64,000 bases of DNA, from assembly GCA_000972765.1 (NCBI GenBank), contig CP011265.1, positions 2,031,501-2,095,500 on the forward strand. Direction: 5' to 3'. The stretch's first letter is position 1. The number at the start of each line of letters is the position of its first letter. Both the position numbers and the translations under genes were made by a program. This document shows, piece after piece, positions 50,570-64,000 of the stretch. This stretch comes from Verrucomicrobia bacterium IMCC26134. Lineage in GTDB: Bacteria > Verrucomicrobiota > Verrucomicrobiia > Opitutales > Opitutaceae. The notes below the pieces were generated by a model. It was given only the letters and a program-made list of their open reading frames with translations. It did not search any database and had not been told where the DNA came from.

Positions 50570-51175
50570 ATGAACGCCCACGCTGCCCACGCCTTCAAAG
50601 AATGGTCCGCGATCGTGAACGCACTCGGTTCGGGTGCCCAAACCATCATCTTGCGCAAGGGCGGGATCTCCGAGGGGCGCGGCGGTTTTGACCCGACGCG
50701 GGCAGGACGTTTCTGGCTTTTCCCGACACTGTTTCATGCCCAGCGAGAGAAACTCAAAGCCGCCGCCGCACCCTGTCTGGACCTCGACGAACGCCATTCC
50801 GCCGCAGTCGACCCGAGCGCACCTCCAAGCCTGCGCTTTTACGCCGATCTTGTTGCTCATCGCTTCCTGAGCGACTGGACGGACGTCGCCGCGCTGGATA
50901 CCTTCCACCTATGGACTGAAGCCACGATTCGGGAGCGTTTCGATTGGGCCAAACCCGCCGGCCTGCACCTGCTCCTCGTCCGCGTGTATCGACTGGACTC
51001 CTCCCTCGCCCTGCCCGCCGGCCTCGACCTCGGCGGCTGTAAATCCTGGATCGAGGTGCCCCTGCCCTGCCCGCCCACCGGAAGCACATCCACACCGGCG
51101 TTAAACGACTCCGCCTTCGCAGCGGCCCGTGCCGCGTTGCCCCTGGCACTTCAGGGTGACACGACCACCCGGTAA
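50570..51175 (+). CDS. DUF1802 family protein
   Basis: A 201-residue protein from ATG 50570 (MNAHAAHAFKEWSAIVNALG); the frame extends to 50456 through the stem-loop, so the later start is used. The family pattern is visible in KEWSAIVNALGSG, QTIILRKGGISEG, RFWLFPTLFHAQREKLK and LHLLLVRVYRL with CKSWIEVPLP near the end. Function is unknown, and no signal peptide or membrane segment is seen. Its 3' end overlaps the convergent pectate lyase gene by 25 bases. Confidence 0.82.
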   Translation: MNAHAAHAFKEWSAIVNALGSGAQTIILRKGGISEGRGGFDPTRAGRFWLFPTLFHAQREKLKAAAAPCLDLDERHSAAVDPSAPPSLRFYADLVAHRFLSDWTDVAALDTFHLWTEATIRERFDWAKPAGLHLLLVRVYRLDSSLALPAGLDLGGCKSWIEVPLPCPPTGSTSTPALNDSAFAAARAALPLALQGDTTTR

Positions 51176-53433
51176 AAGACGCTCGTCTCTGTCGGGGCTG
51201 GCGTATCGGTAAAAACCACCGTGGAACCGGTTCCCGGCACCGCGGCGCCGACATCGACCCAACTGCCGGCTGCGAGCGTGGTGGAACGCTGGAGTTGATA
51301 GGTGTGGCCTAGCAGCGAAGCCTGATTGATCTGCATGCTCGCCCCGGAAAGAGCGATGACGGGCGTAAGAATGCTGGCGGCAGTCAACACCAAGCCTGTG
51401 CCGGAAAGAACGGAGGGCGACGAAGCGCCGGCGGTGACAAGGTCGAGTGTGCCGTGATTGGTAAAACCGCCGGTCGCGAGGAGCCTTGCGCCGCGCGTGA
51501 AACGAAAGGTCCCCGCGTTGGTCACCGCTCCGTTGATCGTCAGCGTGGAGCCGGTGCCGTCGGCAAGCACATCGCCTTCGTTGATCACAGTGCCATTGAT
51601 GGTGCCCGAGCCCGTCAGCACTCCCCCGAGGCGAATCGTCACGGAGGCAACCGTCAGGGTGCCGGTGAGGTTGAGGGTCGCGCCCGACAAAACTTCGACC
51701 GTGGAGGTATTCGTGATCGAACCGGTGACGAGCAAGGTGCCCGAGCGCGCCGTGGTCGCTCCTTCGTAAGTATGCGCACCCGACAACGTGACGAGACCGC
51801 TGCCCGCCATCGAAAATATCATCGGACCGGCGAGCGAACCCGTGCCCGCGAAGGTATAGTTTTTGGACCCGCGAACTTCCACCGCACTTGGCCAAAGCCC
51901 TTCCACGAGCGAAACACCCGGACTGACCGAACCGGTGTTATCAAAAACGATCGCGTCGCCGGGCGCGAACTTGGCCGGGATCGATCCGTGCGACCAGTTG
52001 GCGGTGATGTTGTTATTCCATGCATTCGTAAGGCCATCGCCAGTCCAGATCAGCACGCGCGTATTGGAGGTTCCCGAACCGAACTCAAATGCGCCCAGAT
52101 CAGGAGCCGCTCCGGAAAACGGATAGCCGATGGCGGCACCTGCATCGATGAGATCGCTGCCGGCCGCGAGCTGGAGCAGGCTGATGTCCGGCAGTTGACC
52201 ATTGGGCTTTCTGGGAGTGGCGACAAGAGTCTCCAACTGCGTGGTGGTGGTCGTGGTCGAGACGAAGTCTCCTGCCGCAACCGTGACGGGAAGCGTAAAA
52301 AAGTTCGACGCAACATCACTCTGTGTCTGATCGAGATTACTCAGGGACGCGGAACGCGGCGAAAACCCTAAATTGTTGCGCATGGTGTGTCCGTAGCCGG
52401 CCACGTCGGTGTCGTTGTCGGCCAAGACGGAGAGCAGGTTGAAGTTGGTGGCGTTCTGGTAGGCGGTGTTGCTGATCCAGTCGCTGCCGCCGATATGATG
52501 GTTCGAGTAAAACCCGTTAGCTTTGTTACGCACCGCGAGGCAAAACTTGGTCATGTGGCGCGGCACAGGCGCGGGAAAAGCACCGCCGGCCGCTCCGTAG
52601 CCGCCCGATTTAAACCCGTTGCCGTCGCCGCGGCTGACGAGATTTCCGGAATAGCCGTTGAAAAACGCCCAGCAGTTCTCGAACGCGATGCTCTCGAAGG
52701 CATTGATGCAATCGAAGCCGTCGTCGCTGTTATACCACGCACGGCAGCCGCGAAACACGTTGCCCGTGCCGCCGGCGCGCGGATGGCCGCCGAAGCCGTC
52801 CACGTTGCCTCCGACGCCACTTTCCGAAACGCTATCCCAATTCCGGTAGGCGTCGCAATTGAGGATGAGGTTGTTCGAACCCCTGTTGAGATAGATTCCG
52901 ATAGCCATGCCATCGTGCATGGAGATCTGCTCGTAGATGTTATTGCTCCCCTGGTTCTCAAAACACTCGGACTGGGTATGGATGAGGATAGTCACCTGCA
53001 TGCCGACGATTTCGAGCCCCTTGATATGCAACCACGAACCGGATACAAAAAACGCGAAGATGCGATAGTTGGCGGGCTTGATCGCCGAATAATCAAAAAC
53101 CGGCCGCTCTCCGGGGTAGGCCCAGTAACGGATGCGTGCGCCAGACGTGCCGCTCTTGTTGAGGTTGGTCACGTAGGCCCAGATGCTCGTGTAGAGCGCA
53201 ATCTGGGACTCGGTCATCAGGTAGGTGCCGCCGCGGATGTAAACCGTATCTCCCGCGCTGGCCGCCAGCTGCCCGCGCTGCACGGTGGCAAAGGGACCGG
53301 CCAGCGTCCCTGGGTTCGAATCGCTGCCGTTGGTCGCGACGTAATAGGTCGCGGCGTGCAGAGAGCAAACACCCGAGAAAAGAACCAGCGCCAAGAGGCG
53401 GCGGATAAAAACCATGGTGGGGTGCTTGCTCAT
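51151..53433 (-). CDS. Exported pectate lyase, PL9-type, with beta-strand repeat and C-terminal module
   Basis: A 760-residue protein from ATG 53433, which overlaps the stop of the PL11 gene as ATGA. A signal peptide (RLLALVLFSGVCSLHA) precedes a right-handed parallel beta-helix starting TYYVATNGSDSNPGTL, with GDTVYIRGGTYLMTESQ, IYEQISMHDGMAIGIYLNRG, GNVFRGCRAWYNSDDGFDCI and ENCWAFFNGYSGNLVSRGDG. The NSDDGFD and AFFNGY elements are typical of PL9 lyases, which cut homogalacturonan or rhamnogalacturonan by beta-elimination with a lysine base and calcium. Residues from about 510 hold an autotransporter-type repeat (WTGDGLTNAWNNNITANWSH) and a C-terminal module nearly identical to that of the PL11 protein. 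Confidence 0.85.
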   Translation of the reverse strand: MSKHPTMVFIRRLLALVLFSGVCSLHAATYYVATNGSDSNPGTLAGPFATVQRGQLAASAGDTVYIRGGTYLMTESQIALYTSIWAYVTNLNKSGTSGARIRYWAYPGERPVFDYSAIKPANYRIFAFFVSGSWLHIKGLEIVGMQVTILIHTQSECFENQGSNNIYEQISMHDGMAIGIYLNRGSNNLILNCDAYRNWDSVSESGVGGNVDGFGGHPRAGGTGNVFRGCRAWYNSDDGFDCINAFESIAFENCWAFFNGYSGNLVSRGDGNGFKSGGYGAAGGAFPAPVPRHMTKFCLAVRNKANGFYSNHHIGGSDWISNTAYQNATNFNLLSVLADNDTDVAGYGHTMRNNLGFSPRSASLSNLDQTQSDVASNFFTLPVTVAAGDFVSTTTTTTQLETLVATPRKPNGQLPDISLLQLAAGSDLIDAGAAIGYPFSGAAPDLGAFEFGSGTSNTRVLIWTGDGLTNAWNNNITANWSHGSIPAKFAPGDAIVFDNTGSVSPGVSLVEGLWPSAVEVRGSKNYTFAGTGSLAGPMIFSMAGSGLVTLSGAHTYEGATTARSGTLLVTGSITNTSTVEVLSGATLNLTGTLTVASVTIRLGGVLTGSGTINGTVINEGDVLADGTGSTLTINGAVTNAGTFRFTRGARLLATGGFTNHGTLDLVTAGASSPSVLSGTGLVLTAASILTPVIALSGASMQINQASLLGHTYQLQRSTTLAAGSWVDVGAAVPGTGSTVVFTDTPAPTETSVFYRVVVSP

Positions 53434-56400
53434 GGAGAGACGACAACGCGGTAAAACACACGAGCATCGGTCGGTGCAGGGGTGTCGGTAAACACCAGCG
53501 TGGCATCGGTGCCGCTGCGGGCAACGCCAACATTCACCCAAACCGGTGCCGAGAGATCGGTGCAGCGCTGCAACTGGTAGAGATGTCCCGAATGCGTAGG
53601 AAGTGAGACTTGCAGATCCGAACCGGAACCCGGGGCGATTTCCGGCACGGCCACCGCGGCCGCCGTCAAAATCGTGCCGGTGCCGGACAGCCCTGGGGGA
53701 AGTGAAGAACCAGCGGTAATGAAATCGATTTTCCCCGAATTAGTCACGGCTCCCGACACGGCGAATATCGCACCGCGTGTGAAGCGGATCACGCCGGTAG
53801 CGCTATTGGTCACGGCACCGTTTACGGTCCAACCGGAAGCCCCGTCGGCCAGAAAGGAGCCCTCGTTGATCAGCGTTCCATTGATCACTCCTGAGCCCGT
53901 GAGAGTGCCGCCGGAACGAATCGTCACGGAGGCAACCGTAAGGGTGCCGGTGAGATGAAGCGACGCACCCGACAAAACCTCGACGGTGGAGCTGTTGGTG
54001 AGCGTGCCGGCAAAAAGCAAGGTGCCGGCGGAGACCACGGTGGGGCCGGTGTAGGTGCAGTTGCCGCCAACGGTCCAGGTCCCGGCGCCGACCTTGGTGA
54101 CGGCGGTGCGGCTGGGACTGGTGCCGTTGGTGATCGCACCGGAATACGTGGTGCTCGTGCCGAGTCCTCCAACTTGCCAAGTCACGACATACGAACCCGG
54201 GGTGTTGTTGTCAGGAACTATACCACCGATCACGGCATCGGATGCACCGGATATCGCACCAAGCGGCAGGGTCTGATTTTGGTTAAGATAAGTCAGGAGT
54301 GTGACCTTGGAGCCCAGATCGGTCTGCGACTGGGAAAGGCCGGATGTGTTGGAGAGACGGAAAAAGCCGCCGTCGGCGTCGGTGCTCACGTTGATGCGTC
54401 CGGTAAAAGCAGACCAGTCGCCGAGCACTTTGAAGCGAACCCAGGGCACATAGAGATTAAGCGTGCCGGAACCGGTGAGCGGACCGGAAAGATCCATCCG
54501 CGAATCGACCCGGAAGGTCGGATTCGACCCGGCGGGCACCCGCAAGTCGCAAGTCGTCGCGCTATAGGAACCAGCCGTGTCATACTGCTGCAGCGTTCCA
54601 CCCGACAGGGTAAGCGGACCGGTGCCCAGGCCGGACACGTTGGCGGTTTCGTCGGCGAGCACGAGGGTGCCTGATTGCAGCGTGAAGCCGCCGGTGTGGG
54701 TATTTCCTCCCGCGAGATTAAGTGCGCCTGAACCGGTTTTCACCACGGTGGTGCCGCCTGCGAGACCGCCGCCAGTGGCGGTGAAAGTGTAGTTAGCCGC
54801 CGCATCGACGGTAACGGATGCCGGAGTCAGGGGACCGGTCACGGTGACACTGGAGTTTCCAGAAAAGGTGTCATCAAAACGCACCCGATCCTGCGCGAGG
54901 TAAGCGGTGACGGCGCCGCCTGCTGCAAAAGTCCAGTTAAGCGCCGCGGTATTCCAGAGGCCGGAAGCCGCCCCGCTCCACACGATATCGGCAGGAACCC
55001 GCGTGCTGCTTGAGGTGAGCGTCATGGTCACGACTCCGGGGGTAGAGGTATTGAACGTGGCGGTGTAGCCGGGGTCGCTCCAGACGAAGGAAGGCGTGCC
55101 GGCTAACGTGCCTGTATAAGTAAACAACTGATACGTCGCGGCGCCCAGCGTGCCCGACGGCACGATGGTGACAGGGCCGTTGAAAGTGAGCGTGCCGGCG
55201 AAAACGGGGCCGGCGGCCGCGCCGATCGTGCGGAGTTTACTCCCGGATTGAAAGGTCACCGCCCCCGCAATAACACCCGACCCGCCGAGCGCGGCGCCGG
55301 AGGAGACCGTAACCGAAGATGATCCGATCACGCCGTCCACCACGAGGCCGCCGGCCGAGACTGTGGTCGCGCCGCTGTAACTGTTAATGGAGGTGTAAGC
55401 CAGAGTCTGGCTGCCGGTGGCGGTGGCGGCCTTGGTGAGCGTGAGGCTGGTCGCTCCGACCACAGTAGCAATGCGCGTGCCTGCAGGGATTCCGGCCCCA
55501 CTCACCGGCATTTGCGGAATGAGCCCCGTGGTGCTCGCGAGTGTGACCGTCGTATTACCGGATGTGGTCGTGGTGGCGAGGCTGGTGGCGGCGGATGACG
55601 CGAGCGTGAGCGTGCCGGTGCCGACCTTGGTCAGGCTGTTACCAGTGATGATGCCGGCGAAAGTGGAGTCCGTGTTTTTCGCGCCCACAGTCCAGGCCGT
55701 GGCGGACAAGACAGCCCTCGTGGAGCCCGAGAGCGCTCCGAGACTGGTCGATCCGGTCAACGAGTAGCCGTAGGTGAGGTTGGCGAAATCAACGGACGCG
55801 CTGGCGTAGCCGTAGCCGTTGTTGATTCTAAAATCGCCGCCGCCGGAGTCGGAGATGACATTGATCTGCCCGGTGAAAGCCGCCCAGTTTCCATTCAGTG
55901 CGGTGCGGCTGAATGCGGTGTAAAACGTAAACGTCCCGGCGCCGGTGAGCGAACCGGACAGAGTGCAACGTCCGTCGGCGTTGAGCCGGCCTGATGAGCC
56001 GGAGGGCACAGACAGATTCCAGGTGCAGGAGTTGTTCGACTGAAGATCGGTCATCGAGAGCGTGCCGCCATCAAGGGTAACGAGTCCGGAGCCGAGACCG
56101 TCTTCATTGGCTTCGAAAGAACCGAGCAACACGGCTCCGGCTTTAATCACTGTGCCGCCAGAATAGGTGTTGATGCCCGCGAGATTGAGGGTGCCGGAGC
56201 CGGTCTTTGTCAGCGTGCCATTACCCATCAGCCCGCCCGACCACACCAGGCTGGCAGTGCTGGTGCTGATCTCAATACCCCCTCCTCCGGTAGTGAAGGT
56301 CGCAGCGCGGTTGGTGGAAAAATTAAGCGCGCCGGTGTAGCGGAGAGTGCCGCCGTTGAACACGAGATTGGTGGCATCGGAAGAAGCCGCGCCAAGCGGA

Positions 56401-59400
56401 CCGGCGACCCCGGCAGGCGTGACCGTGGCGATCGACACCACGCCGCCGTTGAGCGTGGTGGGGCCGGTGTAGGTATTGTTGGTCTGGATGGTCAGCGTGC
56501 CCGAGCTGTTCTTCGTCAGCCCACCGGTTCCGCCGATGGAGCCGTTGCCCGAGAACGTATAATTCGCGGTGGCGTCGACCGCGACCGACGCAGGAAAAAC
56601 CTCGGTTGAAAGGCTGACGGCAGATGCTGCTGATCCGGTGGCGTCGAAACGCACGCCGTCTCCCGTCACGAAGGCTGTGGCGTTGCCCCCGATGAGCCAG
56701 TTTGGACTCGTGGCGAGATCCCACGTGGACGTGTTCCCGCGCCAGACCAGGGAATCAGGTGCGCGGGTGGAGGCGACCGTGAGCACCAGAGCACCGCCGG
56801 AAAAAGAGAGTGTCCCGGCTGCGCCCGCCAGGCCGGTAATGGAGATATTCGCCACGGAGCCGGTCAGCGTGCCGGTGTAGGTGATAAGCGTGTAGACGCC
56901 GGGGGCGAGAACCACGCCCAAGAGCTGAAGCTCGATGCGGGTGGTGCCGGCTAGGGTCAGATTCCCGGTGACAACGATGCGATCGCCAGCGGCGACGGGA
57001 GTGGCGCCCAGATCGAACTCGAGGACGGAGGCATTGAGCGAGAGTTGATTGCCGATCGAAAGCGTGCCGGCGGTGCCGAGCGTGGCGGGCGCAACTCGCC
57101 CGCGCGCCGCGACGACGAGCCCGTTACCCAAACTGCCGGTTCCGGCGACGCGTCCGAGTCCCTCGAGCGCCACCATGCTGGAAGCAAGCGTGCCGTTCAC
57201 CGTGAGTGTGCCCTGCTCGACGTGCGTTCCGCCTGTGTAGGAGTGCGCGGCTTGCAGGGTGAGCGAGCCGAGACCGGCTTTGGTGAGGCTCATGGGCCCG
57301 GTGAGCGTGCCGGTGCCGGCGAAGGTGTAGTCTTTGCCGACCGCGTTGTGGACAACGACCTCAGCGGGCGCGAGCGAGCCGACAAGCGTAAGGGCAGAGC
57401 TGGTGTCGCCAGTGTAATCAAGCAGGACGGAGTCCGTGCCAGTGAACGTGCTCGGCGCTGTGCCGCGCAGCCAGCGGGCGCTCCCGCCGGCATCCCAGGT
57501 GTTGGCATCGGTTGCGCCTTTCCACACGAGGTTGCCGTGCCAGATCGGAGCGCGGGGCGGAGCTGACATATCCTGCCCAAGAAAAAACCCGGGATGAGGC
57601 GGCTGATTATAGCCGGTATTCTGCCAAGCGATGGCCTCGCGATACTGCGGGTCATGCATCAAAGTATAAAGCCGGTTGGTCGCGGGAATCGTGGTCGTGT
57701 AAACGCGCAACGCGGTGCTGTCGGTGGTGCGCATCACGACTTCTTCGCGCCAGTCGCCGAGGATGTCGCCGCTGAGGTTGGGCGTGGCCTTGGTGCCATT
57801 ATTGGACGACACACCGCTCATGCTGAGCAGGGCCGAGGTGTTGCCGCTCGCGGGCACCCATTTGGTGATCGTCGTCCCGTCGAGCAATTCGCGCAGAGGA
57901 TCGGCATCCCACCAGGCGCCGAAGTTCACCGCCGGGCGCGACGCCGTGGTGATGGGCACGCCTTTGACGGTGTAAACCATGGAGCTGTTGGTCGCCCAGG
58001 CCTCGTAGCCGGGGTAACGCGGGTCGATATCGAAGGCCACGCCGCGTCCGACGTCGCCGCCACCGGGCGCGCCCCAGAGAGGCGTGCCGTCGCGTTGCTC
58101 GGTGAGGCTGGTGCCGTAGATGCCGTAGGAGGAAGGACTCTCGTGCGGCATGAAAAACTTCAGGCCCGGACTGTCAGGATCCATTTCCGAAAGGTGTGTC
58201 GCGTCACCGTGGCCGAGGCCGGTGCTCCAGAGTCCGGTGCCGTTGTCGTCAATGGCGCAGGCGCCGTAGGCGATCTCGTCTTTGCCGTCCCCGTCCAGAT
58301 CGCCGACGCTGATGCTGTGGGCGCCCTGGCCGGCGTAGGCGAGATTGGAGGCCGGACCGCTGCCGCTGTCGAAGGCCCAGCGCTTGGTCAGTTGCCCGCC
58401 ACGCCAGTCCCACGCAGTCAGAAAGGCGCGGGTGTAATAGCCACGGGCAAACACGCCGGTGGGGCGCTGGCCGTCCAGGTAGGCGACGGCGGCGAGAAAC
58501 CGGTCGAAGCGGTTGCCGTAGCCGTCGCCCCAAAGGGTGGTGAGGCGCGCACTCGAGGGGTTGTCATCGAGGTTGTCGGGGTCGCGCTGGGGAAAGAAAC
58601 GGGTGGTGGCGAGTTCGGTGCCGGTGAGTCCGTCAAAGACCGACAGGAACTCGGGACCGGTGAGGATGTAGCCGCTGGTATTGCGGTAATCGTCGGTATC
58701 GTTGAAGGCCGGACGCACCCCGCCCTGCCACTTGGCCGAGCCGCCGACGTAGGTTCCGGCGGCGTCGAGCGAACCGGGCGCGCTCCGGCACATGATCTCG
58801 GCGCGGCCATCCCCGTCGAAATCGTAAACCATGAAATCCATGTAATGCGCGCCCGAGCGGATATTCACCCCGAGATCGATGCGCCAGATAGGTCCCGCCG
58901 CAGCGGGATCGAGTTTGTAGGCGTCCAGGTAGGTGTTTCCGGTGTAGCCGCTCTGGGAGTTGTCCTTGGAGTTGGTCGGATCCCACTTGAGAATGAGCTC
59001 GTATTCGCCGTCACCATCGAGATCGCCCACACTGCAATCGTTGGCGGTGTAGGTGTAGGCACCGCTGGCATTGGTGCCGCCGGGCGGGATTTGCAGGGGG
59101 ATGGTGAGGTATTGGCCGACCGCACTGTTTGCCGGGAGGGTAAAGGTGGCGCCCGCGGCTTGCTCGACGCCGCCAAGCACGGGGCGGACGGAGTAGGCGT
59201 TACTGATCGTAAAGGTGGCGGTGCCATCGGTGTAATCGGTCGTCGCGGTCAACGGCGTCGCGTTGAGTTTCACGGCGGCGGCACCGTTGGCCGAGCGGTA
59301 GAGATTAAATGCGATGCCAGCGGGATCATCTCCGAGCAAACGCCAGCCAATGTAGACCTGGGTGCTCGAGGAGCGGACCGCAATCATGCCGCGACCGAGC

Positions 59401-59549
59401 GCCTCCATCTGCCGCTGGGCAAAGACCGGCGATGAGCCCAAGCCAGCCATGAACCCCGCAGCGACTACCCAGACCAAGCCCGAGAGCGCGGCCCAGCGAC
59501 GAAGGGAGCGAACGAGATAAGAGATAAGACGGTTGCAGCGTTCGCTCAT
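53430..59549 (-). CDS. Giant exported rhamnogalacturonan lyase (PL11-type) with autotransporter-associated repeats
   Basis: A 2039-residue protein. After a long basic signal peptide (WAALSGLVWVVAAGFMAGLG) the first ~630 residues are a PL11-type beta-propeller: QMEALGRGMIAVRSSSTQVY, CSVGDLDGDGEYELILKWDP, MVYDFDGDGRAEIMCRSAPG, VGDLDGDGKDEIAYGA and LSGDILGDWREEVVMRTTD, including calcium-binding DxDGD loops. About 1200 residues of autotransporter-associated beta-strand repeats follow (units such as TYTGPTTLNGG and TKVGTGTLTLA), then a ~200-residue C-terminal module ending in VFYRVVVSP. There is no beta-barrel translocator. It probably cuts the rhamnogalacturonan I backbone at the cell surface. 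It heads a two-gene unit with the PL9 lyase. Confidence 0.85.
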   Translation of the reverse strand: MSERCNRLISYLVRSLRRWAALSGLVWVVAAGFMAGLGSSPVFAQRQMEALGRGMIAVRSSSTQVYIGWRLLGDDPAGIAFNLYRSANGAAAVKLNATPLTATTDYTDGTATFTISNAYSVRPVLGGVEQAAGATFTLPANSAVGQYLTIPLQIPPGGTNASGAYTYTANDCSVGDLDGDGEYELILKWDPTNSKDNSQSGYTGNTYLDAYKLDPAAAGPIWRIDLGVNIRSGAHYMDFMVYDFDGDGRAEIMCRSAPGSLDAAGTYVGGSAKWQGGVRPAFNDTDDYRNTSGYILTGPEFLSVFDGLTGTELATTRFFPQRDPDNLDDNPSSARLTTLWGDGYGNRFDRFLAAVAYLDGQRPTGVFARGYYTRAFLTAWDWRGGQLTKRWAFDSGSGPASNLAYAGQGAHSISVGDLDGDGKDEIAYGACAIDDNGTGLWSTGLGHGDATHLSEMDPDSPGLKFFMPHESPSSYGIYGTSLTEQRDGTPLWGAPGGGDVGRGVAFDIDPRYPGYEAWATNSSMVYTVKGVPITTASRPAVNFGAWWDADPLRELLDGTTITKWVPASGNTSALLSMSGVSSNNGTKATPNLSGDILGDWREEVVMRTTDSTALRVYTTTIPATNRLYTLMHDPQYREAIAWQNTGYNQPPHPGFFLGQDMSAPPRAPIWHGNLVWKGATDANTWDAGGSARWLRGTAPSTFTGTDSVLLDYTGDTSSALTLVGSLAPAEVVVHNAVGKDYTFAGTGTLTGPMSLTKAGLGSLTLQAAHSYTGGTHVEQGTLTVNGTLASSMVALEGLGRVAGTGSLGNGLVVAARGRVAPATLGTAGTLSIGNQLSLNASVLEFDLGATPVAAGDRIVVTGNLTLAGTTRIELQLLGVVLAPGVYTLITYTGTLTGSVANISITGLAGAAGTLSFSGGALVLTVASTRAPDSLVWRGNTSTWDLATSPNWLIGGNATAFVTGDGVRFDATGSAASAVSLSTEVFPASVAVDATANYTFSGNGSIGGTGGLTKNSSGTLTIQTNNTYTGPTTLNGGVVSIATVTPAGVAGPLGAASSDATNLVFNGGTLRYTGALNFSTNRAATFTTGGGGIEISTSTASLVWSGGLMGNGTLTKTGSGTLNLAGINTYSGGTVIKAGAVLLGSFEANEDGLGSGLVTLDGGTLSMTDLQSNNSCTWNLSVPSGSSGRLNADGRCTLSGSLTGAGTFTFYTAFSRTALNGNWAAFTGQINVISDSGGGDFRINNGYGYASASVDFANLTYGYSLTGSTSLGALSGSTRAVLSATAWTVGAKNTDSTFAGIITGNSLTKVGTGTLTLASSAATSLATTTTSGNTTVTLASTTGLIPQMPVSGAGIPAGTRIATVVGATSLTLTKAATATGSQTLAYTSINSYSGATTVSAGGLVVDGVIGSSSVTVSSGAALGGSGVIAGAVTFQSGSKLRTIGAAAGPVFAGTLTFNGPVTIVPSGTLGAATYQLFTYTGTLAGTPSFVWSDPGYTATFNTSTPGVVTMTLTSSSTRVPADIVWSGAASGLWNTAALNWTFAAGGAVTAYLAQDRVRFDDTFSGNSSVTVTGPLTPASVTVDAAANYTFTATGGGLAGGTTVVKTGSGALNLAGGNTHTGGFTLQSGTLVLADETANVSGLGTGPLTLSGGTLQQYDTAGSYSATTCDLRVPAGSNPTFRVDSRMDLSGPLTGSGTLNLYVPWVRFKVLGDWSAFTGRINVSTDADGGFFRLSNTSGLSQSQTDLGSKVTLLTYLNQNQTLPLGAISGASDAVIGGIVPDNNTPGSYVVTWQVGGLGTSTTYSGAITNGTSPSRTAVTKVGAGTWTVGGNCTYTGPTVVSAGTLLFAGTLTNSSTVEVLSGASLHLTGTLTVASVTIRSGGTLTGSGVINGTLINEGSFLADGASGWTVNGAVTNSATGVIRFTRGAIFAVSGAVTNSGKIDFITAGSSLPPGLSGTGTILTAAAVAVPEIAPGSGSDLQVSLPTHSGHLYQLQRCTDLSAPVWVNVGVARSGTDATLVFTDTPAPTDARVFYRVVVSP

Positions 59550-60408: not shown

Positions 60409-63400
60409 TTACGGGGTGTAAGTAACGTTGAGACGCAGGAAGCGGCGCGGGTTGGCGGAGATCAGCTGGGTATCGGTCACCGTCTTGGAACCGGCTACGT
60501 TGCCAGCGCCAGAGGTTTGATTGACCGTGGCCCAAGCCGGGGTGCCGGAGATGTCATTCACACCTTGGACGGTGTAAGTGAGCTTCGTGTCGGCGATCGC
60601 GGTGTAGGTCAGCGTGAGCGAACCGCTGGCACTCCCGATCGAGCAGGCGGGACCATCAGCGACCAGCGGGTTATGGCTGGTGGCATACTCCAGGAAGTTA
60701 GCCATACCGTCGCCATCCGGATCGGCGTTGTCGCCGGCGATCGCAGGATTGGTAGCGTTCACACCGAACTGAGCCTGACGCCATGTCTCGAGACCGCTAA
60801 GCACCACCAAGGTAGGCGTGGCGGAGACTTCAGCGGAGTTACCGCTTAATCCGAGCGCATTCTTAGCCTCGACGACGTAGTAATAAGTGGTGTCGTTGGT
60901 CAGACCGGTGTCGGTATAGCTGAGCGCGGCGTTGTTGTTGATCGTGGTGTAGGGCCCGCCAGCGACGGTGGAGCGTTTCACCAAGTAGGAATCGGTGTTG
61001 GTGCTGGCATTCCACGAGAGGGCAACCTGTGCGTTGCTACCGGTCGCGGCCAGTCCTGTAACGGCAGAAGGCAATACCACGGCGGATCCGCCGGACACGG
61101 CCAACTCGCCGGTGGCGGCGGTGAAGGTGTAGGTCACGCTGCCGACCGTTCCGCTCCAGATGCCATTGGCGCCGGCGTCGGTCAGAGCGACATCCGTGTC
61201 AGTAGGGGTCGTCACGGTGACTGCGGCGAAGTTGCCCTGCGGCGCGCCACCGGTCGACTGCAACAAGGTATAGGATCCATTATACACCGTATTCAGGAAG
61301 TTGAGCTTGAGCGTGCCACCATAAGTGATGCCGCTCGCGATATCGCAACTGATGCCGGTGAAGACATTATTCGAGAAGTCGATCTGGGTCGTGGCAGTGG
61401 CGCCCAAGGTGAGCGTGGCGGCGTTGGTGAAGGCCAAGCGACCACCCAGCAGCCCCGTGGAGTCGGGACGAAGATTGCCGTTAATGGTGGTCAGGCCACC
61501 GAAGCGACCGTTACCGGCCAGCGTCGCGACCACAGCGACCACACAGGCGCCGGGTTCTTGGTTCTGGTAAGCGGTGGCAGGCGGCGTGATCGAGATCGTG
61601 TCGTCACACAACAGCGAAACGGGATCGCGTCCATAGGAGCCGTCTACACCGCTGCCGAGGTAGAAACGCTCGATCGAGCCCATCAGCTTGAGTGTGCCAG
61701 CATTCACGTTCAGCGAATTTACGGCGCCCAGTGTGGTGATCATATTCGTCGCGCCGTTGATCGTCAGAGTGCCGGTGCCGACCTTGGTGATGACCGGGTA
61801 ACCGTAACCAAAGATGTTCAGGGTTCCTTTGATCTGACCGTTAATCACGGAGTCCGTGTTCAATGCTCCGATTTGGTAAACGTTGTAGCGACCGCCGACT
61901 GGATTGCCGGCGAGGGTTGCGGCTGCGTCCACATTCAGTGCGCCAAATTGGTGGATGGAGCTCAATGTGCCACTGGAAGGCGGGTTGTTCACCTGATAAA
62001 CTTGGACGCCTGCGCCCAGGTTCACGGTGGCGCCGCTCATGTTATGATCCGCGTTTAAGCGATAATCATCGGTTCCAGCTCCGGTCGCTGAGATGTTCAG
62101 CACACCCGTGAAACCGGGCCAGTTGCCGTTGATGTCCGAGCGGGTTGCGTCAACACTCAGATTAAGGGTGCCCGCACCACTCACCGCCCCGGTGACGCCG
62201 CCGCGTTGAGGCAAATAGATATTGGCCGTGACCCCCGTGGCTACCACCAGCGCATTCCGTAGGTTATCATAGGAGGTGCCGTTATCGGTCAAGCCCTGGC
62301 CATTCATATAAAGTTTAACGCCATCGCCAAAGGTGATCGTCCCCGTTCCCAGGCCAGACTGACCATTGGCTGCCGTAGCGCCCAGACGGACGATTCCGGA
62401 GCCAAGCGTAACCGGCCCGCTAAAGCCGCTATTCAGGCCGGAGAGAGTCAAGTTACCGGAGCCACTCTTGAGCAGAGCGCCCGTGCCCGACATCGCACCT
62501 GAGACCGTAAATCCAAGATCAGTGCCGACATTGATTTCACCGCCATTGGCACCGATCACCAAGGCGCGGGAATTTGCCCCCGCGTTGTTAAGCGCCAGGG
62601 TCGCCGTTGGCACAAGCACACCTCCATCCAGCGACAGCTTCGCACCCGATGCCTCGGCACCGAGATTGGCGTTGCTGGAGATAATCAGACTGCCGCCCGT
62701 GACAGCGGTGGAGCCGGTGTAGGTATTGGAACCAGACAAGGTAAGCGATCCCGCACCGGACTTGGTGAAGGAACCGGTTCCGCCATTACCGATCGTATTG
62801 GCGAGGACGACATTGTTGCCGTTAGTATCGATCGTGGCGCCGTTGATCGCGAAGGTGATCACCTTCGACGAAATATCGGCCGTGTTACCCGTATCGTAAC
62901 GGAGTGCGCCACCGTTCAGGGTCAATGAACCCGAGCCGAGGCTGCTTGCATTCGCAAAGCCCAACACGCCAGCAGCCACTGCCACATTGCCGCTGAAGCT
63001 ATTGGTGCCGGTCAGGTCGAGGGTGCCTACAGCGGACTTATTGATGCCACCCACGCCGGATACCCCGCCTGAAATAGTGAGGCTGGAGTTTGCAGCTACG
63101 GCGATACCTGCCGTGGAGTTGAGGATAACGGGCGCGGTAATGGTATTATTACCGGCGTCAATCGTCACGCCGGAAGCAGACACACCATTATCCAAGGTGA
63201 GATTGCCACCCGTGCCTTGGGCGATGGTGTAACCACCGCTGCCACCGAAGGCCAATCCCTTGGTCGTGCGATCGCCATCCAAGGTGACTGTGGCAACCGA
63301 GCCGAGCGAGGCCTGGAACTTGGCGGTGTAATTGCTGCCACCACCGGCTGCCGTGGAATCGGTCCAGTTCGCGGCGCTGCCCCAGCTGCCGGAGCCGCCG

Positions 63401-64000
63401 GCTGACCACTCAGGTATGACGCCGTTGTTGACGACGTTGAGCGTCACAACGCCACCGCTTGCATCAAAGGTATACGCATAACCGGATGCAGGATTGAAGA
63501 CGGACAAGTTGTTCACCGCCGGGACTGCGCTCCCGGAATATTGCATGATCGTGTAGTTGCCCGTAGCTGCTAATCCATTGGCCGTGCCGGTCGGATTGAG
63601 CGTCAACGAGACGGCCCCATTCAGGCTCAAGCCATCGGTATCGGTCACAACCAACTTATCGTTGGAAGAGGTGGAAGTGAACTCGAGATCCATGAGGGAT
63701 CCCGCAGCGAGATTGAGTTTACCCACGGTCAAGGTGCCCACGCCACCCACGCCAGGTTTAATTTTTCCGCCCGTAGCAACGGAGACACTGCCGGAAACCG
63801 TTCCGGTGCCGCTCAAGACGGTGGTATTCGCTAAGGTAAGATTACCCGAGCCCGTCGCGGAACCAGTGCTGTTGGTGACAACCAAGCCGCCGGCATTAAT
63901 CGCGGTGTTACCCGCATAAAGATTGGCTCCTCCGAGGGTAAGATTGCCTGTGCCGAGTTTGGTGATGCCACCTGTGCCGTTATTGCCGATCGAGTTGGCA
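60409..64000 (-). CDS. Giant exported protein of autotransporter-associated beta-strand repeats (N-terminus outside window)
   Basis: The frame is open to the right edge, so only the C-terminal ~1195 residues are seen; an apparent start at 63885 is an internal TTG in a repeat. About 800 residues are tandem beta-strand repeats with units such as SGSNTYTGSTAVTGGSLIIS and KVGTGTLTING. Near residues 900-990 of this part is a fibronectin type III domain (ALSWNASTNTDSYLVKRS, YTDTGLTNDTTYYYVVEAKN), then a short calcium-type repeat (GDNADPDGDGMANFLEYATS) and a closing beta domain. No beta-barrel is present. It is likely a surface or secreted adhesin-like or glycan-binding protein; its enzyme domain, if any, lies beyond the window. 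Confidence 0.85.
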   Translation of the reverse strand, partial: ANSIGNNGTGGITKLGTGNLTLGGANLYAGNTAINAGGLVVTNSTGSATGSGNLTLANTTVLSGTGTVSGSVSVATGGKIKPGVGGVGTLTVGKLNLAAGSLMDLEFTSTSSNDKLVVTDTDGLSLNGAVSLTLNPTGTANGLAATGNYTIMQYSGSAVPAVNNLSVFNPASGYAYTFDASGGVVTLNVVNNGVIPEWSAGGSGSWGSAANWTDSTAAGGGSNYTAKFQASLGSVATVTLDGDRTTKGLAFGGSGGYTIAQGTGGNLTLDNGVSASGVTIDAGNNTITAPVILNSTAGIAVAANSSLTISGGVSGVGGINKSAVGTLDLTGTNSFSGNVAVAAGVLGFANASSLGSGSLTLNGGALRYDTGNTADISSKVITFAINGATIDTNGNNVVLANTIGNGGTGSFTKSGAGSLTLSGSNTYTGSTAVTGGSLIISSNANLGAEASGAKLSLDGGVLVPTATLALNNAGANSRALVIGANGGEINVGTDLGFTVSGAMSGTGALLKSGSGNLTLSGLNSGFSGPVTLGSGIVRLGATAANGQSGLGTGTITFGDGVKLYMNGQGLTDNGTSYDNLRNALVVATGVTANIYLPQRGGVTGAVSGAGTLNLSVDATRSDINGNWPGFTGVLNISATGAGTDDYRLNADHNMSGATVNLGAGVQVYQVNNPPSSGTLSSIHQFGALNVDAAATLAGNPVGGRYNVYQIGALNTDSVINGQIKGTLNIFGYGYPVITKVGTGTLTINGATNMITTLGAVNSLNVNAGTLKLMGSIERFYLGSGVDGSYGRDPVSLLCDDTISITPPATAYQNQEPGACVVAVVATLAGNGRFGGLTTINGNLRPDSTGLLGGRLAFTNAATLTLGATATTQIDFSNNVFTGISCDIASGITYGGTLKLNFLNTVYNGSYTLLQSTGGAPQGNFAAVTVTTPTDTDVALTDAGANGIWSGTVGSVTYTFTAATGELAVSGGSAVVLPSAVTGLAATGSNAQVALSWNASTNTDSYLVKRSTVAGGPYTTINNNAALSYTDTGLTNDTTYYYVVEAKNALGLSGNSAEVSATPTLVVLSGLETWRQAQFGVNATNPAIAGDNADPDGDGMANFLEYATSHNPLVADGPACSIGSASGSLTLTYTAIADTKLTYTVQGVNDISGTPAWATVNQTSGAGNVAGSKTVTDTQLISANPRRFLRLNVTYTP

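Follow-up and report, generated by a model that had tools for sequence, protein, structure and literature searches.

Many exported enzymes end in a folded beta-sandwich, the T9SS C-terminal domain or Por secretion tail. In two other systems, PEP-CTERM/exosortase and GlyGly-CTERM/rhombosortase, the tag is likewise a homology region at the extreme C-terminus of unrelated exported proteins, and the region is a suffix found in some orthologues only; PMC3237569 takes such a "sequence suffix" as characteristic of sorting tags. Both of these tags are short, with a motif, a transmembrane helix and a basic end. The autotransporter-associated beta-strand repeat (PATR; PF12951, TIGR02601) forms a predicted parallel beta-helix, which in autotransporters has a beta-barrel downstream.

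Verrucomicrobiota rank among the major degraders of polysaccharides from plants and algae, but little is known of how their very large enzymes reach the cell exterior. Here we consider two adjacent lyase genes in a 64-kb stretch of DNA from Verrucomicrobia bacterium IMCC26134, the whole of which is called the window below. The two lyases share a C-terminal tail, the first part of which is PATR-like. There is no beta-barrel downstream; the proteins are closed instead by a domain of ~65 residues, which we call the terminal domain (TD). Like the PEP-CTERM and GlyGly-CTERM tags the TD lies at the very end of unrelated exported proteins, but it is predicted to be a folded beta domain without a transmembrane helix. 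Like the T9SS domain it would be a beta-sandwich, but with a different end motif. Our search of the open-access literature found no paper that describes it.

Results

The features of the locus are collected in Table 1. The upstream gene encodes a polysaccharide lyase of family 11, as its RGL11 catalytic domain indicates (PF21348 RGL11_C, 8.6e-212; PF18370, 5e-19), and the downstream gene a lyase of family 9 with a Pel9A-like beta helix (PF22842, 4.3e-104 in Pfam; the NCBIfam PelN model NF041899 matches at 9e-107, below its cut-off). PL11 is a PATR protein by both family models (PF12951/TIGR02601, 92.6 and 96.2 bits), and PL9 taken alone falls just under the cut-offs (PF12951 21.9, cut-off 27; TIGR02601 19.8, cut-off 19.85). 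No barrel family matches PL9, PL11 or the third PATR protein of the window, so that none of the three is a type V autotransporter by this measure.

Table 1. Features of the PL11-PL9 locus and its neighbourhood (window positions, except for the last row, which gives positions in G000, the genome of the window)
Feature	Position	Strand	Basis or remark
PL11 rhamnogalacturonan lyase gene	53430..59549	-	ORF, 2039 aa, N-terminal signal peptide
PL11 catalytic part, residues 46-666	57552..59414	-	Pfam PF18370 46-135, PF21348 147-666
PL11 PATR beta-strand repeats upstream of shared tail	54063..57551	-	PF12951 + TIGR02601, 6 stretches
PL11 shared C-terminal tail, ~210 aa	53433..54062	-	63% identity with PL9 tail
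PL11 TD, residues 1975-2039 of 2039	53433..53627	-	TD profile match 1e-26
ATGA overlap, PL11 stop and PL9 start	53430..53433	-	sequence
PL9 pectate lyase gene	51151..53433	-	ORF, 760 aa, signal peptide
PL9 catalytic part	52078..53355	-	endpoint of most PL9 homologues in family
PL9 tail, beta-helix (PATR) part	51370..51891	-	AlphaFold model residues 60-233
PL9 TD, predicted FN3-like strands A-F, up to stop codon	51154..51369	-	AlphaFold model residues 234-305; TD profile 9e-26
23-nt tract in PL9, identical to PL11 53917-53939	51632..51654	-	marginal P 0.04-0.06; PL9 51654..51632 against PL11 53939..53917
23-nt tract in PL11, identical to PL9 51632-51654	53917..53939	-	sequence comparison
Third exported PATR protein of window	60409..63999	-	1714 aa in full, extends past window end; divergent TD class
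Divergent TD ("FLRL" class), after DPDGDG/TSP3-like stretch of third PATR protein	60412..60648	-	six strands, AlphaFold model 2
G000 pseudopilins	3176092, 347504, 3551286, 2097804, 331387, 1872189, 3009276		

How alike are the two tails? The original prediction held that ~220 C-terminal residues of the two lyases are nearly identical and form one module. The common stretch is real: every quoted string is found, ~206-210 residues align over 211 columns, and the likeness goes well beyond what chance would give (E=7.8e-66 for a search of the same genome). "Nearly identical" was an overstatement for tails that share 62-63% of their residues and ~64% of their DNA. The idea of a single module is rejected, as the halves occur apart across the phylum. 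When a whole-tail profile (A3) was run against 194 phylum genomes, the matches fell mostly on positions ~1-215, the beta-helix, or on ~227-300, the terminal part, and matches to both were uncommon. The shared tail thus consists of two joined parts, a PATR-repeat beta-helix, which is known to Pfam and NCBIfam, and the TD. We read the first ~140 residues of the tail as the closing turns of this helix.

Two further proteins of the same genome carry the whole tail at 38-42% identity to PL9, and a reading of their N-termini indicates that they are PL1-like pectate lyases. A narrow search of public contigs with the tail alignment returned five records only. A PL11-type tail was seen in public MAG records titled Akkermansia muciniphila (L151, L153), whose organism labels look wrong; the match position in L153 agrees with that in the same-genus genome G075.

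Among 19 PL9 loci, 12 end at the catalytic domain and three are large fusions; the PL9 of the window has the full tail, and other tails are found in the two sister species and in G019. By comparison of these sequences the tail on PL9 behaves as a suffix, present or absent among orthologues.

Neither Pfam nor NCBIfam has a family that matches the TD better than chance. At least one match at E<=1e-4 is found in 154 of 387 phylum genomes, where no more than 15 candidates were scored in each, and often there are many copies. In the genome of the window, 28 of 30 matches end 0-7 residues before the stop. For a broader view we surveyed 75 carriers, taken from this genome, from its close relatives and from about 40 genomes sampled from the phylum. 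Although the profile search is blind to stop codons, 73 of 78 copies lie within 12 residues of one. The exceptions are a weak match, a second copy in one protein, two internal copies in another, and a copy that stops 16 residues short of the end. There is conservation at the end itself: 72 of 73 cases have an aromatic-x-R motif close to it, and proline is the final residue of 41 of the 75 TD proteins, as against 17 of 95 control ORFs (P=7e-7). The FLRL-class domain is related to the TD by profile-profile comparison (97.7%, E=1.8e-12). It also closes a second PL11-like protein of the same genome (2518 aa; L027 3568-11124; G000 2563567-2571123), and the two PL11 paralogues accordingly differ in tail class.

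Even at E<=5, neither Pfam nor NCBIfam gave a T9SS sorting-domain match to the TD, and a search for the SprA/Sov translocon found nothing in the genome, with control genomes equally silent. PEP-CTERM (PF07589) matches neither PL9, nor PL11, nor the TD rows, and the same library does detect PEP-CTERM elsewhere in the genome, where one PATR protein (L031 4888-8601) ends in this tag alongside PATR proteins that end in a TD. Exosortase genes lie at genome positions 2455664 and 2822256.

An AlphaFold model of the PL9 tail (26 rows) has a mean pLDDT of 85.5, with ~89-96 for the TD, and consists of a beta-helix followed by an FN3-like sandwich. Structure matches to the beta-helix (VIA-align) include 4kh3, a bacterial self-associating protein and the closest match (Z 13.1), HxuA (Z 12.9) and fusolisin (Z 12.0 at 1.7 A). 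The second model, built for the FLRL class, has a mean pLDDT of 88.4 and the same six strands as the PL9 TD. FN3 domains of ~93 residues match both models only to residue ~76-79, that is, strands A-F of the seven (Z 5-8); the predicted strands superpose, but the chain ends after F, without strand G. The FN3 sequence model (PF00041) does not match the TD in Pfam, and Foldseek gave no match below E=0.001. That the TD is an FN3-like sandwich which stops after strand F is, on these models, a reasonable conclusion but not a strong one.

What proteins carry the TD? All complete carriers examined have a signal peptide, judged by a heuristic and by eye; the heuristic is a loose one, since it accepts 49 of 102 control ORFs as well, and complete N-termini that failed it were read by eye. 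The carriers include lyases, sulfatases, a multicopper oxidase, a DNA/RNA nuclease, M36 and S8 peptidases, a cytochrome-like protein and laminin-G proteins, and some have the NCBIfam choice-of-anchor D or X domains. The domains that precede the TD are very different: beta-helix, TSP3-like, Ig, or enzymes. The claim that the unit belongs to exported glycan enzymes therefore holds as to export, and its restriction to glycan enzymes is refuted by the nuclease, oxidase and peptidase carriers, to which the cytochrome-like protein may be added. A genome belonging to the same order (G202:C2) has an open frame 17,232 residues long that contains PATR-like repeats and is a candidate for a giant surface protein.

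The genome of the window has 31 prepilin-type matches, 21 of which lie outside pilus and secretion clusters. Seven of these 21 orphan pseudopilins adjoin TD genes, versus 0.4 expected, with the list of TD genes fixed beforehand. The orphans have almost the same N-terminus (FTLIELLTVIAIIGILAA) and lie beside genes of large exported proteins, and they may be substrate-linked pseudopilins. Others adjoin genes of PEP-CTERM proteins or of untagged exported enzymes, so that the link is to exported proteins generally and is not TD-specific. In a related isolate, for which a type II route for alginases has been proposed, there are 67 pulG-like pseudopilins (PMC13274419). Another orphan prepilin-like gene was seen in G042 (L081 5962-6702).

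Discussion

What does the TD do? The closing part of the tail had been predicted to be a common surface-attachment or sorting unit. For the last ~65 residues this fares well, though short of proof: they have the general marks of a sorting tag, namely an extreme C-terminal position, exported carriers and suffix-like behaviour. The link to choice-of-anchor domains and the fact that only some orthologues have the tail are marks of sorting tags in the sense of PMC3237569, which supports the TD as such a tag. The TD probably serves as an address or as an anchor. To the fuller reading, that it is a phylum-wide C-terminal targeting, export or anchoring tag of Sec-exported proteins with the PATR beta-helix as a stalk, we give about an even chance. 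It must be said that the end position can also come from plain domain shuffling at gene ends, and that the internal copies in one protein and the second copy in another count against a tag.

One might think that the TD is an ordinary FN3- or Ig-like end-cap or spacer, which would stabilize the C-terminus of exported multidomain proteins and take no part in sorting. FN3-like domains commonly serve as simple spacers, and the FN3-like fold of both models, the very different preceding neighbours and the few internal copies would all fit. FN3 spacers are, however, usually internal and repeated; the TD is at the very end in nearly all of the surveyed copies, is predicted to lack strand G, and has a conserved end with its aromatic-x-R motif and enriched terminal proline. 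We consider the spacer possible, if somewhat unlikely.

A carbohydrate-binding module that holds the enzymes on the plant cell wall or on cell-surface glycans is improbable. Its presence on pectinases would suit this role, and there are weak similarities to binding modules: a sequence search of solved structures found weak matches only, the best (E=0.036) to the chitosan-binding module 2rv9, and F5/8 type C is matched at E 0.02-0.04. Binding modules are not confined to the extreme C-terminus, however, the listed fold matches are FN3, and the nuclease, multicopper oxidase, peptidase and cytochrome-like proteins carry the TD as well.

If the TD is a tag, how might it work? The proteins would be exported through Sec by their signal peptides and would then fold in the periplasm. 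There the TD, FN3-like, without strand G and with an open edge strand at the C-terminus, would be recognized by an outer-membrane export or retention machinery, and the enzyme would be released or held on the surface, with the beta-helix stalks projecting the lyases. We infer from the models that the open edge strand at the chain end would make an attractive recognition site, and the orphan pseudopilin genes beside TD genes suggest a type II-like route for TD proteins. The most specific version of this scheme, in which the TD is a new class of signal, a G-less FN3 fold whose edge strand is recognized or donor-strand completed by outer-membrane machinery that is perhaps type II-like with private pseudopilins, strikes us as rather unlikely as it stands. 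Whatever its mechanism, the TD is a phylum-wide C-terminal marker of exported proteins that standard family libraries do not name, and it offers a handle for secretome prediction, possibly as a fusion tag, and for a search for partner machinery by phylogenetic profiling.

What evolutionary steps gave PL9 its tail? The sister species G044 and G075 have a PL11 with the tail and no PL9 behind it; their PL9 lies elsewhere and has a different end. Tail identities are 62% between PL9 and PL11 of the window, 64% between this PL9 and the PL11 of G075, and 63% between the two PL11s; the rest of PL11 is conserved between the species at 83-85% in the catalytic part and 72% in the repeats. Recent homogenization should have left the tails of one genome closer to each other than to the sister orthologue, and since the tails are equidistant, the PL9 tail looks like an old copy. 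At sites where the PL9 and PL11 tails have the same residue, the codons are identical in only 46% of cases, which equals the background seen with orthologues of other species. In a maximum-likelihood tree the tails of PL9, of PL11 and of the sisters' PL11 form an unresolved fork, well apart from the PL1-type tails.

The original prediction had pointed to a patch of DNA similarity as a sign of duplication or gene conversion. The patch is real, a 23-nt identical run, and is only marginally unusual by a permutation test (P 0.04-0.06). That the tails are alike through recent duplication or ongoing gene conversion is very improbable, for the neighbouring position of the genes, their common tail type and the identical run are outweighed by the equidistant tails, the background codon identity and the unresolved fork, and as a recent event it is largely refuted. 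An old copying of a PL11-type tail onto PL9 is likely from these comparisons, and the gene content of the sister species fits it. PL9 would have gained the tail long ago, as a suffix, and now lies behind PL11 with a four-base overlap.

Elsewhere in the same genome, two exported proteins encoded ~18 kb apart (L050 and L051; G000 347688 and 365931) have identical C-terminal ends, of which the last ~115 residues are shown; this is a sign of recent duplication or conversion at that site.
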